Shown piece by piece: positions 23,122 to 28,142 of a stretch of 64,000 nucleotides of DNA. Made by a program: the position numbers and the translations under genes. Source of the DNA: Nocardioides daeguensis (GTDB lineage Bacteria > Actinomycetota > Actinomycetes > Propionibacteriales > Nocardioidaceae); assembly GCF_019192965.1 (NCBI RefSeq), contig NZ_JAHTKU010000002.1:1-64000 (forward strand). Reading direction: 5' to 3'. The notes under the pieces are model-generated. The model made no database searches. It had not been told where the DNA came from and was given only the letters and a program-made list of their open reading frames with translations. The stretch's first letter is position 1. Each line of letters begins with the position of its first letter.

Positions 23122-25472
23122 TGAGCACCGGCAGCATCACCGACCGGCGCGGTCCGTTCGGCCCGCACCTCCTCTTCGGTGTGGTCGCCGTCCTGACGGC
23201 CTGGGCCGCGCTGATCGCGTGGGGCGGCTTCGTCGACGACCCGGGCAGCTACCTGCGTCCGCTCGCCGTCCTCGGCGCGCTGTTGGCGCTCAGCGGTGCA
23301 CTGCTCCGGTGGAGCGGGATCCCACGCTGGCTGACCGCGCTCGCCCAGCTCGCGCTGACCACCTTGTTCGTGTCGCAACACATCACCGGGTCGCTGCTCC
23401 CGGTGGGCGGCACGGCCGGCGAGCTGTGGCAGGCGCTCGAGACCTCGGTCCGGACCTCACGCCGGTACGCCGCGCCGATCGGCGACCAGGTCCCGCCGGT
23501 CTGGCCGCTGCTCGTCGTCGCCGGGGCCGCGGTCCTCGTCCTCGTCGAGATCCTCGCCTGCACCCTGCGCAGGGTCCCCGCCGCCGGGCTCGCCCTGCTC
23601 GCCGCCTACGCCCTGCCCAGCGGCGTGCTCGACGACGGCCCGGACGCGGCCAGCTTCGTCGGCGCCGCCGCCGGGTTCATCGTCCTGCTCCACCTCGACT
23701 CCCGCGATCACCTGCTGCGCTGGGGCCGCTCGGTCGGCCCCGACCAGGACACCCTGTGGCGCGGCAACCCGTTGCGCGAGGCGATGCGTGCGGGCGCCGG
23801 CCGGATCGGCGTCACGGCCACCGCGCTCGCGCTCCTCGTCCCTGCCGTGCTGCCGACGGTCGGCGTCGACCTGCTCGACCTCGGCACCGGCAGCGGCAAC
23901 GGCGACATCCGGATCCGCAAGCCGGTCGCCGACATGCGCCGTGACCTGGAGCGCGGCGAGGACGTGCCGCTGGTCGAGGTCCTCACCGACGACCCCGCGC
24001 CGTCGTACCTGCGGATCTCGGTGCTCAACCGCTACACGGGCGACGAGTGGAGCAGTGGCGACCGCGACGTGGCGCGCGACGACCGCGCCGACGGGCAGGT
24101 CCCCCTCCCCCGCGGGCTCTCCGACGAGGTGCCGCGCACCACCTACGACTACGACGTGTCGATCAGCGAGGACCTCGACTCCACCTGGCTGCCGACTCAG
24201 TACCCCGTGTCCGCGATCGACGCTCCCGGCGACTGGCGCTTCGACCCGGCGACCATGGACTTCCTGGCTGCCGACGGCGGACTCGACACCCGCGGCATCA
24301 GCTACACGATGAAGTCGCTGTCGCTCGACTTCGGCACCGACCGCGCGTTCTTCCGCAACTCCGGAGCGGGCGACACCTCCGAGGAGGTGCGGCGCCTCCC
24401 GACCACGGTGCCGCCGATCGTGCGCAACCTCGCGCGCGAGGTGAGCGCCGGTGGGACCACCGACTACGAGCGGGCGCTGTTGCTGCAGCGCTGGTTCCGG
24501 CAGGACGGCGGGTTCACCTACGACCTGCGCCAGGCGCCGAAGGGAACCGGGAACCAGACCCTGGCCGGCTTCCTGGCCCGCGACGGCCGCGTCGGCTACT
24601 GCGAGCAGTTCGCCTCCGCGATGGCCGTGATGGCACGGGTGCTCGGCATCCCGTCCCGGGTCGCGGTCGGCTTCCTCCAGCCCGACCCGGTCGGCAAGCG
24701 CCGCTGGGTGTACAGCAGCCACGACCTGCACGCCTGGCCCGAGCTCTACTTCGAGGGCTCCGGCTGGGTCCGCTTCGAACCCACTCCCGCGGGCCGCGTC
24801 GAGGACGTTCCTCCCTACACCCGGGTCGCCGTCGCCGGCGGCAGCGACGACCCGCGCGGTGGGCCGACCGCCGCGAGCTCGGCGACCTCCGGCGGCACCG
24901 GCACGGCCGGGCCCAGCGCTGGACCGAACCGGCGACCGGAGATCGAGCGCGACACCGGCTCGACCACCAGCGCCGACGAGGGCGGGCTGCCGCTGCCACT
25001 GCTGATCGGCGGCGGTGCCCTGCTCCTGCTGCTCGTGGCCGGCATCGCCGCGCTCGGCGGTCCGAGTGCCGTGCGGGCCCGTGAGCGCCGGACCCGTCTG
25101 GCGGGGACGCCCGACGACGTCTGGCGCGAGGTGCGCGCCACCGCCGTCGACCTGGGCCTGGCCTGGCCGGCCGGCCGCTCGCCACGCGAGGCGGGCGCCT
25201 TCCTGCTCGACCACCTCGCCGTCCCGACCGACCGGCCCGCCGAGCGGCCGCGCACCGGCGCCGAGGCCGCGCCGGAAGCCGCCGACGCGCTCGAGCGACT
25301 GGTTCTCGCGGTCGAGCGGTCTCGCTACGCGCGGCCGGGGTCGGTGGCAACCCTCGAGCGGACCTCGGCCACCGAGGACGGTGCGCTCGTCGTCGCGGCA
25401 CTCCAGGCCGGGGTCACGCCACGTGCACGGCGGCGGGCGCGGTGGATCCCGCTCTCGGTCTGGCGGCGCTGA
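23121..25472 (+). CDS. Membrane-anchored transglutaminase-like protein (TgpA type)
   Basis: 783 residues. The N-terminal DUF3488-like part has about six membrane helices (residues 15-250). An extracytoplasmic region follows, with a transglutaminase-like core: Cys in GRVGYCEQFASAMAVMA, His in SSHDLHAWPELYF, and the third site in GWVRFEPTP. A Gly/Ser/Thr linker leads to another helix (LPLPLLIGGGALLLLLV) and a cytoplasmic DUF4129-like tail. Members of this group are predicted extracellular peptidases or amidases acting near the envelope. It overlaps the DUF58 stop (TGATG). Confidence 0.88.
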   Translation: MSTGSITDRRGPFGPHLLFGVVAVLTAWAALIAWGGFVDDPGSYLRPLAVLGALLALSGALLRWSGIPRWLTALAQLALTTLFVSQHITGSLLPVGGTAGELWQALETSVRTSRRYAAPIGDQVPPVWPLLVVAGAAVLVLVEILACTLRRVPAAGLALLAAYALPSGVLDDGPDAASFVGAAAGFIVLLHLDSRDHLLRWGRSVGPDQDTLWRGNPLREAMRAGAGRIGVTATALALLVPAVLPTVGVDLLDLGTGSGNGDIRIRKPVADMRRDLERGEDVPLVEVLTDDPAPSYLRISVLNRYTGDEWSSGDRDVARDDRADGQVPLPRGLSDEVPRTTYDYDVSISEDLDSTWLPTQYPVSAIDAPGDWRFDPATMDFLAADGGLDTRGISYTMKSLSLDFGTDRAFFRNSGAGDTSEEVRRLPTTVPPIVRNLAREVSAGGTTDYERALLLQRWFRQDGGFTYDLRQAPKGTGNQTLAGFLARDGRVGYCEQFASAMAVMARVLGIPSRVAVGFLQPDPVGKRRWVYSSHDLHAWPELYFEGSGWVRFEPTPAGRVEDVPPYTRVAVAGGSDDPRGGPTAASSATSGGTGTAGPSAGPNRRPEIERDTGSTTSADEGGLPLPLLIGGGALLLLLVAGIAALGGPSAVRARERRTRLAGTPDDVWREVRATAVDLGLAWPAGRSPREAGAFLLDHLAVPTDRPAERPRTGAEAAPEAADALERLVLAVERSRYARPGSVATLERTSATEDGALVVAALQAGVTPRARRRARWIPLSVWRR

Positions 25473-25703
25473 GCGGTGCTCGGCCGCGGTCACCGCCGCA
25501 CTCGACGCCGCCACCCTCGTGAGCGGAGGACCCCGCCGCTGATCTCGGCCGGCTCCTGACCGACGACCGGGGCGCCGTCGCCCGCTCCCGGGAGGGGGCA
25601 GCTGCAGTGCCCGGCTTGACTGCCGTCGTACGCCGGCGACCGGCGGCCGGACGTGCCGATGTCCCCGCAGCCTGCTGGTCCTGCGGGGTTCGGGGCGGAG
25701 TGG
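25473..25703. terminator. Convergent intergenic region with hairpin
   Basis: Between convergent tgpA-like and DUF222-HNH genes. A perfect 8-bp hairpin CCCCGCAG / CTGCGGGG (25663-25670, 25681-25688, 10-base loop) sits just beyond the HNH stop. It lacks a T tract. I see no gene here. Confidence 0.45.
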
Positions 25704-27119
25704 CTACTCGTCGGGCGGGTGGACCACATGGGTGCCGCGGTGGTCGACCCGGAACCGGAACCCACTGGGGCTGGTCCACACATAGGACCCGGGCATCACG
25801 ATGTCGTAGCGCCATGCCGAGTGGGTCTTCGCCCGGTGATGACGCCTGCAGAGCGGAACTTCGTTGCACGGACAGGTCACGCCACCCTCGCCGTAGGGGC
25901 GGGCGTGGTCGAGGTCGCAGCGTTGTGCGGGGCGGGTGCAGTGCGGGAACCGGCAGGAGTGGTCGCGCAGGGCGACGCGGGTCTTGTGCCGGTCGGGGAT
26001 CTCGTAGGAGTCGACGGGGACGTGGTCGGCCAGGTCGATGACCGGGCGCACGATGATCGTGGTGCCCTTCGCCCGCAGCCACTCGCGGATCTGGGCGGTG
26101 CTGATCGGACAGCGCCCTTCCTCCCACCGCCCGACGGGGTTCGCGAACGGGTTCGTGTCGTCGAGGAGGCTGGTGTCGGTGAGGTGGACGTTCAAGACCA
26201 CCTTGCGACCCGGCACCGTGCTCCCGGTGGTTGAGCTGTCTCCGGTGGTTGAGGTGCGAGCGCCAGCGAGCATCGAAACCCCCGGGCCCTCCGGCTCCCC
26301 GGTGGTTGAGGTGCGAGCGCCAGCGAGCCTCGAAACCCCCGGGCCCCCTGGGCCCTCGGAGGCCGGGATGAGCAGGTCGAGCGCGAGGTCCTGACGGGCG
26401 AGCTCGGCGGCAGCCTTGGACCGTCGTACGTCCAGGGACGACTCGTCGCCCAGCTTCCCGAGGACCTCGGCACGCCGTGCCACCGCGAGGTTCAGGTCGT
26501 GCCCGTCAGCGGCATCCAGCAGCCCGTCGAGGTGAACCAGGCCGTGCTCGTCGACCTCACCGATGTCGAAGTGACGCTGATCCGATGCGTTCCGCCGGTC
26601 GGTCTCTGCCTGCTCGGGGTCGAACCGCAGGACTGCTTCGGTGATGAGGCGTTCGAGCTGGGCCCATCCGACGCCGGAGGCGTGGAACAGCTGCCGGTCC
26701 ACGAACGCCGCCGCTTCGGCACACAAGCCGTGGGTCAGGTCGGCGATGCGTTCGGCCCGCCACGGCGCCAACCGCCCGGCGGTCACCGCGGCGTAGACGT
26801 TGGGGAGCCGCCAGGCGCACTCGATCACCCGCCCGACGTACGCCTTGCCACCATCGGGGGTGCGGCCGAGGACCGCGACGAGCTCCATGACCGCGAACTC
26901 GGAGATCAGGGGTGCGCCGGGTCCGGCGATGGGGATGCCGGTGTCGAGATAGCCCTCGGTGATCGTCGCGGCGCCTTCAGGTCCGGTGACGATGTGGTCG
27001 CCGGCCCAGGCGGCGATGTCTTCCCATTCCTCGATCACCAAGGTGTTGCGGGAGCGGATCCGCTCACCCACGCGCGACAGCAAAGCTGTCGTCGAACGGT
27101 GCCGGGTTCCGAGATCCAT
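25704..27119 (-). CDS. DUF222 / HNH endonuclease-domain protein (13E12 family)
   Basis: 471 residues. An all-helical DUF222 domain (about residues 20-330) precedes a C-terminal HNH nuclease motif: CRFPHCTRPAQRCDLDHARPYGEGG, then N and LCRRHHRAKT (about residues 395-450). This is the 13E12 repeat family, abundant in actinobacteria; some mycobacterial members are DNA-damage induced, but I see no SOS box here. Residues about 259-292 are encoded by two copies of a REP-like palindromic element and read GVSRLAGARTSTTG and GVSMLAGARTSTTG, interrupting the C-terminal part of DUF222 in frame. The protein may still be functional if this is a surface loop. Confidence 0.88.
   Translation of the reverse strand: MDLGTRHRSTTALLSRVGERIRSRNTLVIEEWEDIAAWAGDHIVTGPEGAATITEGYLDTGIPIAGPGAPLISEFAVMELVAVLGRTPDGGKAYVGRVIECAWRLPNVYAAVTAGRLAPWRAERIADLTHGLCAEAAAFVDRQLFHASGVGWAQLERLITEAVLRFDPEQAETDRRNASDQRHFDIGEVDEHGLVHLDGLLDAADGHDLNLAVARRAEVLGKLGDESSLDVRRSKAAAELARQDLALDLLIPASEGPGGPGVSRLAGARTSTTGEPEGPGVSMLAGARTSTTGDSSTTGSTVPGRKVVLNVHLTDTSLLDDTNPFANPVGRWEEGRCPISTAQIREWLRAKGTTIIVRPVIDLADHVPVDSYEIPDRHKTRVALRDHSCRFPHCTRPAQRCDLDHARPYGEGGVTCPCNEVPLCRRHHRAKTHSAWRYDIVMPGSYVWTSPSGFRFRVDHRGTHVVHPPDE
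26242..26285 (+). repeat. REP-like element, copy A (inside HNH gene)
   Basis: Begins CCGGTGGTTGAGGTGCGAGC and ends CATCGAAACCCCCGG; same element as copies B-F. A truncated left end (CCGGTGGTTGAG) lies just before it at 26224-26235. Confidence 0.85.
26299..26342 (+). repeat. REP-like element, copy B (inside HNH gene)
   Basis: Same orientation as copy A, 57 bases further on; differs from A at one base of the core (CCTCG for CATCG). The copy spacing is a multiple of three, so both are read in the same frame by the host gene. Confidence 0.85.
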
Positions 27120-27244
27120 GACCGGATTCTCTCAGTTGGGTCCGACACAACCCGAGGCCGCAAACCCGCCTGTGCACAGGCGAAACCCGACCATCGGGGT
27201 GGGGAGAGGCGACCTCACGATCGGTGACCGCAGGGGCTCGTGCC

Positions 27245-27381
27245 CCGGTGGTTGAGGTGCGACGAGCGCCAGCGAGGAGCCTCGAAACCACCGGGCCTCC
27301 GGACGCGAACTGTGCCCGGACGGTTCCGGCAGCATGGCCAGAGGTTTCGAGGCTCGCTGGCGCTCGCACCTCAACCACCGG
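27245..27381. repeat. REP-like inverted pair C/D (BIME-like unit 1)
   Basis: Copy C (27245-27294) runs forward with 9-base terminal inverted repeats CCGGTGGTT / AACCACCGG. Copy D (27343-27381) is the same element in reverse. About 48 bases separate them. Confidence 0.85.
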
Positions 27382-27392
27382 CGGGGACTGCT

Positions 27393-27530
27393 CCGGTGGT
27401 TGAGGAGCGACGAGCGCCAGCGAGGAGCCTCGAAACCTCCGGGCCCACGGGCGCGAACTGCGCCCGGGCGCGTTCCGGCAGCACGGCCAGAGGTTTCGAG
27501 GCTCGCTGGCGCTCGCACCTCAACCACCGG
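27393..27530. repeat. REP-like inverted pair E/F (BIME-like unit 2)
   Basis: Copy E (27393-27442, forward) and copy F (27492-27530, reverse) repeat the C/D arrangement, including the spacer, with a period of 148-149 bases. The whole 27120-27560 gap holds these units and no gene. Confidence 0.85.
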
Positions 27531-27560
27531 CGGCGGGCGGGGGCTGCGGTTCGGTGGGGC

Positions 27561-27989
27561 TCAGAAGCCGCCGCGGTCGCGGCGACGACGCCAGCGGGCC
27601 TGGAGGGTGTCCATGAAGCCGGAGGAGCGGCCGTGGCTCCGGCCGTGGTGGTGGCGACGGCCGCCGTCGACGACGCCGAAGCCGGACGGGTGGGAGGTGA
27701 CGTTGGGGGTCGCACCGCCGCGCTGGCTGCGGAGCGAACCCAGCAGGATGGTCGCGGAGGCGAGCATCACCAAGAAGCCGGCGACGCCGACGGGCCAGTA
27801 GCCGCTGACGGCACCGCCCATCATCACCGCGATGCCACCGGCGAACACGGCGCCTGCGAGGATCGCACGGCGTCGGGCAGCCTGCCGGAGGGTCGTGCCC
27901 CGCAGGGTGGACGCGAACTTGGGGTCCTCCTCGCTGAGGGCGCGCTCCATCTGCTCCAGCAGTCGCAGCTCCTCTTCCGAGAGTGGCAC
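27561..27989 (-). CDS. DUF3040 membrane protein
   Basis: 142 residues with the DUF3040 signature at the N terminus (VPLSEEELRLLEQMERALSEEDPKFASTLR), two membrane helices (about residues 45-85), and a basic His/Arg/Gly-rich tail (GGRRHHHGRSHGRSSG). Such proteins are common next to dcw genes or dinB in actinobacteria; no function is established. I chose the GTG at 27989, which yields the usual family start and follows GGAGGA; an in-frame GTG at 28004 would add five residues. Confidence 0.85.
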   Translation of the reverse strand: MPLSEEELRLLEQMERALSEEDPKFASTLRGTTLRQAARRRAILAGAVFAGGIAVMMGGAVSGYWPVGVAGFLVMLASATILLGSLRSQRGGATPNVTSHPSGFGVVDGGRRHHHGRSHGRSSGFMDTLQARWRRRRDRGGF

Positions 27990-28142
27990 CGAATCCTCCG
28001 ACACGTGTGAGGCGGTTCTCCGCCGATGACTTGCTTCAAGTGTAGGCAGGCATCTCCAGCGGTGGTAGGCCGTCCCCCGAAAATGTCCGGTCGACGACCG
28101 TGACCATCCCGACGGGTGGTCGGCCGCGGGGCCACCGCGGGG

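Follow-up and report, generated by a model that had tools for sequence, protein, structure and literature searches.

The window, by which we mean the whole stretch of DNA analysed, covers the opening 64 kb of contig 13. The genome, 4.66 Mb in size, belongs to the genus that also contains N. carbamazepini and N. albidus. The window carries a DUF222-HNH-like gene with short palindromic elements both inside its reading frame and in the gap upstream of it:

25663..25688, minus strand: hairpin immediately 3′ of the stop codon, seen in the sequence
25704..27119, minus strand: DUF222-HNH-like gene, 471 aa, one of eight close paralogues, carries elements
25821..25955, minus strand: HNH-like region, a Cys/His cluster with DH..N..CxxHH, read by eye in an alignment
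26214..26363, minus strand: the whole expanded linker, 150 nt, against 30-36 nt in the 22 relatives analysed
26224..26241, plus strand: left-arm-only remnant, encoding the linker part DSSTTG
26242..26285, plus strand: in-frame element copy, 34-nt core at 26247-26280, antisense reading GVSMLAGARTSTTG
26299..26342, plus strand: in-frame element copy, 34-nt core at 26304-26337, antisense reading GVSRLAGARTSTTG
27250..27289, plus strand: upstream element, 40-nt type, pattern match
27343..27376, minus strand: upstream element, 34-nt type, its 44-nt form 95% complementary to the 26299 copy (inverted pair)
27398..27437, plus strand: upstream element, 40-nt type, pattern match
27492..27525, minus strand: upstream element, 34-nt type, pattern match

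The window protein matches the Pfam DUF222 model (PF02720) at 33.8 bits, against a curated cut-off of 24.4. This was the only Pfam family matched even with E allowed up to 1; neither Pfam nor NCBIfam found HNH in the window protein, and two proteins checked had no NCBIfam family at all. From the motif read by eye and two weak profile matches (the HNH model PF01844 against the homologue L105 at a sub-cutoff E of 0.036, and a match to McrA at E 0.059), the protein looks HNH-like and is a putative nuclease. Its AlphaFold model has a mean pLDDT of 65 and a pTM of 0.42, so the fold cannot be judged, and a Foldseek search of the model against the PDB returned nothing at E 0.001. By eye, the hairpin that follows the stop codon recurs in variant form after three other paralogues (C5, C7a and C7b) and in more divergent form after C41.

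The two palindromes in the gene are 44 nt long, 91% identical over a 57-nt register, spaced 57 nt from start to start, and encode GVS(R/M)LAGARTSTTG. They agree in coordinates and in both peptides with the original prediction, made from the sequence of the window, that two copies of a palindromic element lie in frame within the HNH gene, 57 bases apart; its further claim that the same element occupies the neighbouring gap is borne out by the four copies at 27250-27525, which alternate in orientation. The exact pattern GGTTGAG-N(14-40)-CTCGAAACC occurs five times in the window and not once in 100 shuffles; the 26242 copy, with a single base change in its right arm, falls outside the exact set. 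Rfam, searched over 25400-28000 at E 0.1, matched no family.

The genome-wide search for copies that the prediction had proposed found 87 exact matches, against none for a reversed control pattern. Copies read CCGGTGGTTGAG ... CTCGAAACC and range from 32 to 54 nt in size. Fourteen of the 87 lie in coding frames, nine in DUF222 paralogues and five in other genes; 13 of these calls rest on codon statistics on both flanks and one (C7:43061) on its ORF, and the exact copies outside coding frames have one coding-like flank or none. Within the 40-nt class, which comprises 17 distinct sequences among 50 rows, the inner pairs 14-27, 17-24 and 18-23 are seen as both GC and CG, and positions 12-29 and 13-28 are unpaired. 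The 40-nt type folds with a z-score of -3.83 and the 34-nt type alone with -0.87 to -1.42, a weak hairpin. One further locus, C6:84228-84487 of the same genome (G000), holds a longer, 54-nt element three times in tandem at a spacing of 103 nt; its outer arms are those of the family and its inside is a different one.

Beyond this genome, matches to a looser pattern turn up in 186 of the 196 genus genomes, between 0 and 439 per genome, and a lone match may be due to chance; in a set of 147 genomes from the order, counts above 12 are confined to the genome's own family. The Y1 transposase profile (Y1_Tnp, PF01797) found no match in the own genome and a match in one of the 196 genomes of the genus sample, with 5 of 14 control genomes positive. 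The elements are a REP-like palindromic family of Nocardioidaceae without the usual REP transposase. With that transposase family almost missing from its sampled genomes, the genus offers a clean setting for finding out by what other means REPs can spread.

All eight close paralogues in the own genome carry the element, and in each it occupies the same position, flanked by LALDL..P and T(V/I)P(G/R)RK. Their linkers measure 93, 75, 69, 105, 150, 135, 105 and 138 nt, every length a multiple of three. Besides the window gene, four paralogues are intact and encode proteins 87-93% identical to the window protein; the other three are broken, by an early stop (L046, C34), by a frame shift (L049, C25b) and by loss of the end, with unrelated sequence in its place (L052, C25a). 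Residues 8-40 of the five intact paralogues come in two N-terminal versions, of the SRVGERIRSRNTL and SGLRAEVEGRQASL types, perhaps a sign of mosaic exchange.

In four related Nocardioides, both the arm motif and the peptide are absent from 22 of 22 analysed genes (Nocardioides sp. SLBN-35, n=4; N. carbamazepini, n=9; Nocardioides sp. LHD-245, n=7; N. albidus, n=2, not counting its L088-L091, whose linkers are unreadable), and the linkers are 30-36 nt long. The N. albidus genes L082-L085 also have plain linkers. The original prediction had named the peptide in homologues lacking the element as the result that would make it ancestral protein sequence; with 0/22 such genes, its insertion reading stands. 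Both flanks are syntenic with at least one related species at five of the eight own loci (C34, C41, C5, C7b and C25b) and one flank is at C25a; the window locus and C7a found no partner among the fetched loci. Since element-free genes occupy the syntenic position for five of the eight sites, the comparison of sequences indicates that the gene stood at these sites before the element arrived and that the insert is derived.

In a tree built from the sequence preceding the linker, each of the five genomes forms a group of its own, with 100/100 for the own eight genes. After the linker, three genome groups hold; the own C7a is placed beside N. albidus, the own group appearing in 41% of bootstraps, and L064 stands apart from the other LHD-245 genes, the LHD-245 group as a whole appearing in 5% of bootstraps. 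(The trees omit alb_L083, which has N in its sequence, and N. albidus L082, L084 and L085.) Grouping by genome despite shared sites is the pattern that concerted evolution by gene conversion would be expected to leave, and gene conversion probably spread the insert among the paralogues.

The insert appears to be tolerated because five of the six frames through the 34-nt core are open, the length in the linker stays divisible by three and a disordered linker is predicted (pLDDT below 50 for residues 243-314 in the AlphaFold model). Without the insert, as in L101, the linker sits within the span of the Pfam DUF222 model. Tandem units within linkers are 27 nt (four cases) or 57 nt (the window gene and C7b) long and those outside linkers 32 to 44 nt, the one in a YgfZ-like gene being 42. 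The five intact paralogues are under purifying selection, with dN/dS of 0.10-0.36 in all 20 comparisons.

Five other genes of the own genome hold one in-frame copy each (L128, L129, L136, L142 and L144), and their products belong to five families: a GcvT-family protein that we take to be YgfZ-like, a thioredoxin-like protein, an Lhr-like helicase, the NAD(P)H-hydrate repair enzyme (Nnr) and an M3 peptidase. The element is read in three different frames across host genes. At the element, the Lhr-like helicase is 14 residues longer than its solved homologues and the M3 peptidase 12 residues longer; Nnr has three extra residues inside the element and five just after it, and for the YgfZ-like protein the match to solved structures is too weak to judge the insert. 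With in-frame copies in five unrelated genes the element is not special to the nuclease gene; the original prediction had called a repeat that supplies protein sequence to a nuclease-family gene unusual.

The same linker is occupied in other, often distant, homologues, among them G072 L115, G062 L105 and G078 L116; elements are present in 8 of 9 sampled G078 paralogues of the same type and in 1 of 3 from G072. In a sample of 30 genomes (described below), linker elements were found in G016, G019, G036, G146 and G189, giving an in-gene count of five; an automatic count of six included G041 (L118), whose element, to judge from the peptide, precedes the true start. Three of these genomes (G146, G016 and G036) form one clade in the control-gene tree. 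The in-linker elements comprise about five sequence types in both orientations: plus in G146, G016 and G036, minus in the own genome, G078, G072, G062 and G189, and both in G019. As far as sequence types can tell, this variety makes several separate origins likely. In the own genome and in G189, the upstream region and the linker hold the same subtype in inverted orientation. The next loop of the protein holds a different element type in G093 (L096) and, by eye, a similar peptide in G055 (L109).

Elements also gather around these genes. The 30 genomes were hand-picked as having at least 28 pattern matches and a protein match, not all qualifying genomes being included, and in each we compared one DUF222-HNH gene with one dinB-like control gene (Pfam IMS). 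An element lay within 600 nt upstream of the DUF222-HNH gene in 19 of 30 genomes and of the control in none, with 0.34 expected from genome averages; in the other 11 genomes the DUF222-HNH gene had no upstream element. Over the 30 whole loci the totals were 61 and 6 elements, respectively, and inside the genes 5 and 0. Upstream elements were oriented plus in 31 cases and minus in 5, and neither this bias nor the enrichment is corrected for relatedness; 17 of the 19 genomes were mostly plus, with G053 minus and G079 mixed. Among 30 DUF222 loci picked via Pfam score from 12 element-rich genomes, 4 of them cut by contig ends, an element lay within 700 nt upstream in 7. In the own genome, the eight DUF222 units, whose limits were set by hand, account for 28 of the 87 copies, and the 34-nt type is concentrated there (20/26, against 8/61 for other sizes; Fisher p 1.4e-8); none of four other DUF222 genes checked in that genome had an upstream element.

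Partial copies of the element are polar. Tandem arrays in the own genome (G000 C33:103326-103532, C7:41831-42051 and C25:14516-14650, for example) run from left-arm-only partials to one full copy, each unit with a few flank bases. The regions holding all 87 copies (about 344 kb) contain 55 left-arm copies without a right arm, including two full copies with a changed right arm. Of these, 53 precede another left arm within 70 nt, and in 37 of the 53 the next unit repeats at least three of four flanking bases. Of the 16 right arms without a strict left arm, 14 belong to full copies in which the left arm is a variant, and two by eye seem right-only. In 211 loci of other genomes, tandem partial copies were left-arm-only in 79 cases and right-arm-only in 21; over all partial matches in the same loci, right-only exceeded left-only (300 versus 159), the right pattern being two bases shorter and less specific. 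This polarity looks like the product of repeated nick-and-copy at one end, and the HNH-like protein would be a natural candidate for the nick. For a part of the HNH protein in the element's spread, the support is co-localisation, and there is a counter-example in G130: 49 pattern matches, and not one DUF222 hit among all 24 of its candidates scored (genus tallies otherwise scored about 11 per genome). Conversely, G014, G035 and G129 each reach 10 or more DUF222 hits with no more than one pattern match.

We consider it probable that a REP-like element was inserted in frame, was tolerated, and was then carried across the paralogues by gene conversion. In an ancestor of the species, one element would have entered a multi-copy DUF222-HNH-like gene at its flexible linker, replacing about seven codons as judged by eye from the linkers. 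Its open core, a length divisible by three and the disorder of the linker would have let it persist; conversion among the paralogues would have distributed it over the eight loci, and the linkers would have become variable as elements, whole or partial, were duplicated locally. A single original insertion would be the simplest history, the alternative being repeated insertion into each paralogue; gene conversion would be the spreading step, and the peptide seems to be tolerated rather than to have gained a function. Several findings sit less comfortably with this account: the own and LHD-245 groups are not strictly monophyletic after the linker, three of the eight loci (the window locus, C7a and C25a) found no two-flank syntenic partner among the loci fetched, three of the eight paralogues are broken, and Nnr shows just three extra residues inside its element. 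A gene-carrying mobile unit with fixed ends was set aside as the main explanation, since at five of the eight loci the syntenic genes of relatives have no element. That the peptide is ancestral protein sequence, from which the intergenic copies derive, has next to no chance of being right given its absence from the related genes analysed and the three frames used across host genes, and we found nothing in its favour.

Tolerance by itself does not account for the gathering of elements at DUF222 genes. One suggestion, which we regard as quite possible and which is compatible with the tolerated-insertion account while addressing the clustering, is that elements insert anywhere, that most insertions into coding sequence disappear and that copies survive where a multi-copy gene is dispensable, in its disordered linker and in the long gap upstream, to be multiplied by conversion; it fits the predicted disorder, the eight own copies at one position, grouped by genome, and the other host genes that put up with in-frame copies, and it does not readily yield the upstream excess over the control or the orientation bias, although that control is a single gene with an unmatched upstream gap. 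Those two features would instead be expected if the DUF222-HNH-like protein itself propagated the elements, recognising or nicking the palindrome so that copying is primed and elements gather around and inside its own gene, as REPs do at RAYT genes. The HNH nick and subsequent repair copying would add left-arm-first partial units with a few flank bases, elements would pile up mostly in one orientation, and gene conversion would keep enzyme and element families together in each genome. The excess of elements per locus, the concentration of the 34-nt type at DUF222 units, the other element types in the equivalent linker elsewhere, the polar partial copies and the near absence of Y1_Tnp all lean this way. 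We nonetheless think the propagation role unlikely, in view of G130, of the three genomes rich in DUF222 and nearly devoid of elements, of the low counts at Pfam-picked loci and at the other own DUF222 genes, of the copies in five unrelated genes and of figures that ignore relatedness; that DUF222-HNH proteins supply the propagation factor missing from a RAYT-free class of REPs in Nocardioidaceae is correspondingly doubtful. Less plausible again is that the in-gene copy was kept because it is useful: it might serve in cis, for regulation or for recombination among the paralogues, or the linker peptide might itself be functional. The inverted same-subtype pairs and the near-universal occupation in the sampled G078 paralogues would suit such a use, which is improbable when related species manage without the element and its in-gene orientation varies among genomes. 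The original prediction was right about the observation and about insertion, was not borne out in singling out the nuclease gene, and proposed a part for the protein in spreading the element that we think unlikely. Whether elements persist or move without DUF222 could usefully be asked in G130.

Within the tolerated-insertion account, what is unusual is the recurrence in one linker together with RAYT-free REPs clustered at DUF222-HNH genes, and a search of the open-licence literature found no paper linking DUF222 with palindromic elements. A close parallel is provided by the Rickettsia palindromic elements (RPE), reportedly described by Ogata et al. in 2000 and 2002. In the passages on them in PMC10969869 and PMC3733652, RPE are dispersed palindromes of about 150 bp with a CGTC tag that lie in frame in several unrelated genes and are translated. 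The likeness to these descriptions is in-frame insertion into several unrelated genes, here eight DUF222 genes and five others; the Nocardioides elements differ in being 32-54 nt long, GC-rich and without the CGTC tag, in belonging to free-living actinobacteria and in having a recurrent site in one gene family. As far as these passages go, in-frame palindromic insertions have been described in Rickettsia, with scattered intragenic REPs elsewhere in bacteria. Here, in a free-living actinobacterial genus, such insertions recur in the linker of one nuclease-like family, and element-free syntenic copies in related species provide natural controls.

REPs, as portrayed in sections of PMC3733652, are short palindromes found mostly outside genes and clustered beside a multi-copy gene, those of the RAYT-associated type having a GTAG tetranucleotide at one end; intragenic REPs are reported there too, among them one in recB whose position is roughly shared by two Xanthomonas species. 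The Nocardioides elements resemble REPs, taken as imperfect palindromes of 20-40 nt with many copies, mostly outside genes, and differ from REPs and REPtrons in lacking the GTAG tag, in the Y1 transposase being present in 1 of 196 genomes and in the neighbouring gene being DUF222-HNH. On the side of the gene, the parallel is REP13E12 of M. tuberculosis, multi-copy loci that the relevant part of PMC10589994 mentions alongside HNH endonuclease/DUF222 and which, according to a portion of PMC13061034, undergo frequent gene conversion and have no defined function. Multi-copy DUF222 genes and, probably, conversion are common to both systems, likened by description, with the palindromic element unmentioned in those portions of the two sources. 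DUF222-HNH genes, repeated in M. tuberculosis as REP13E12 as well as here, become testable candidates for what spreads REPs.
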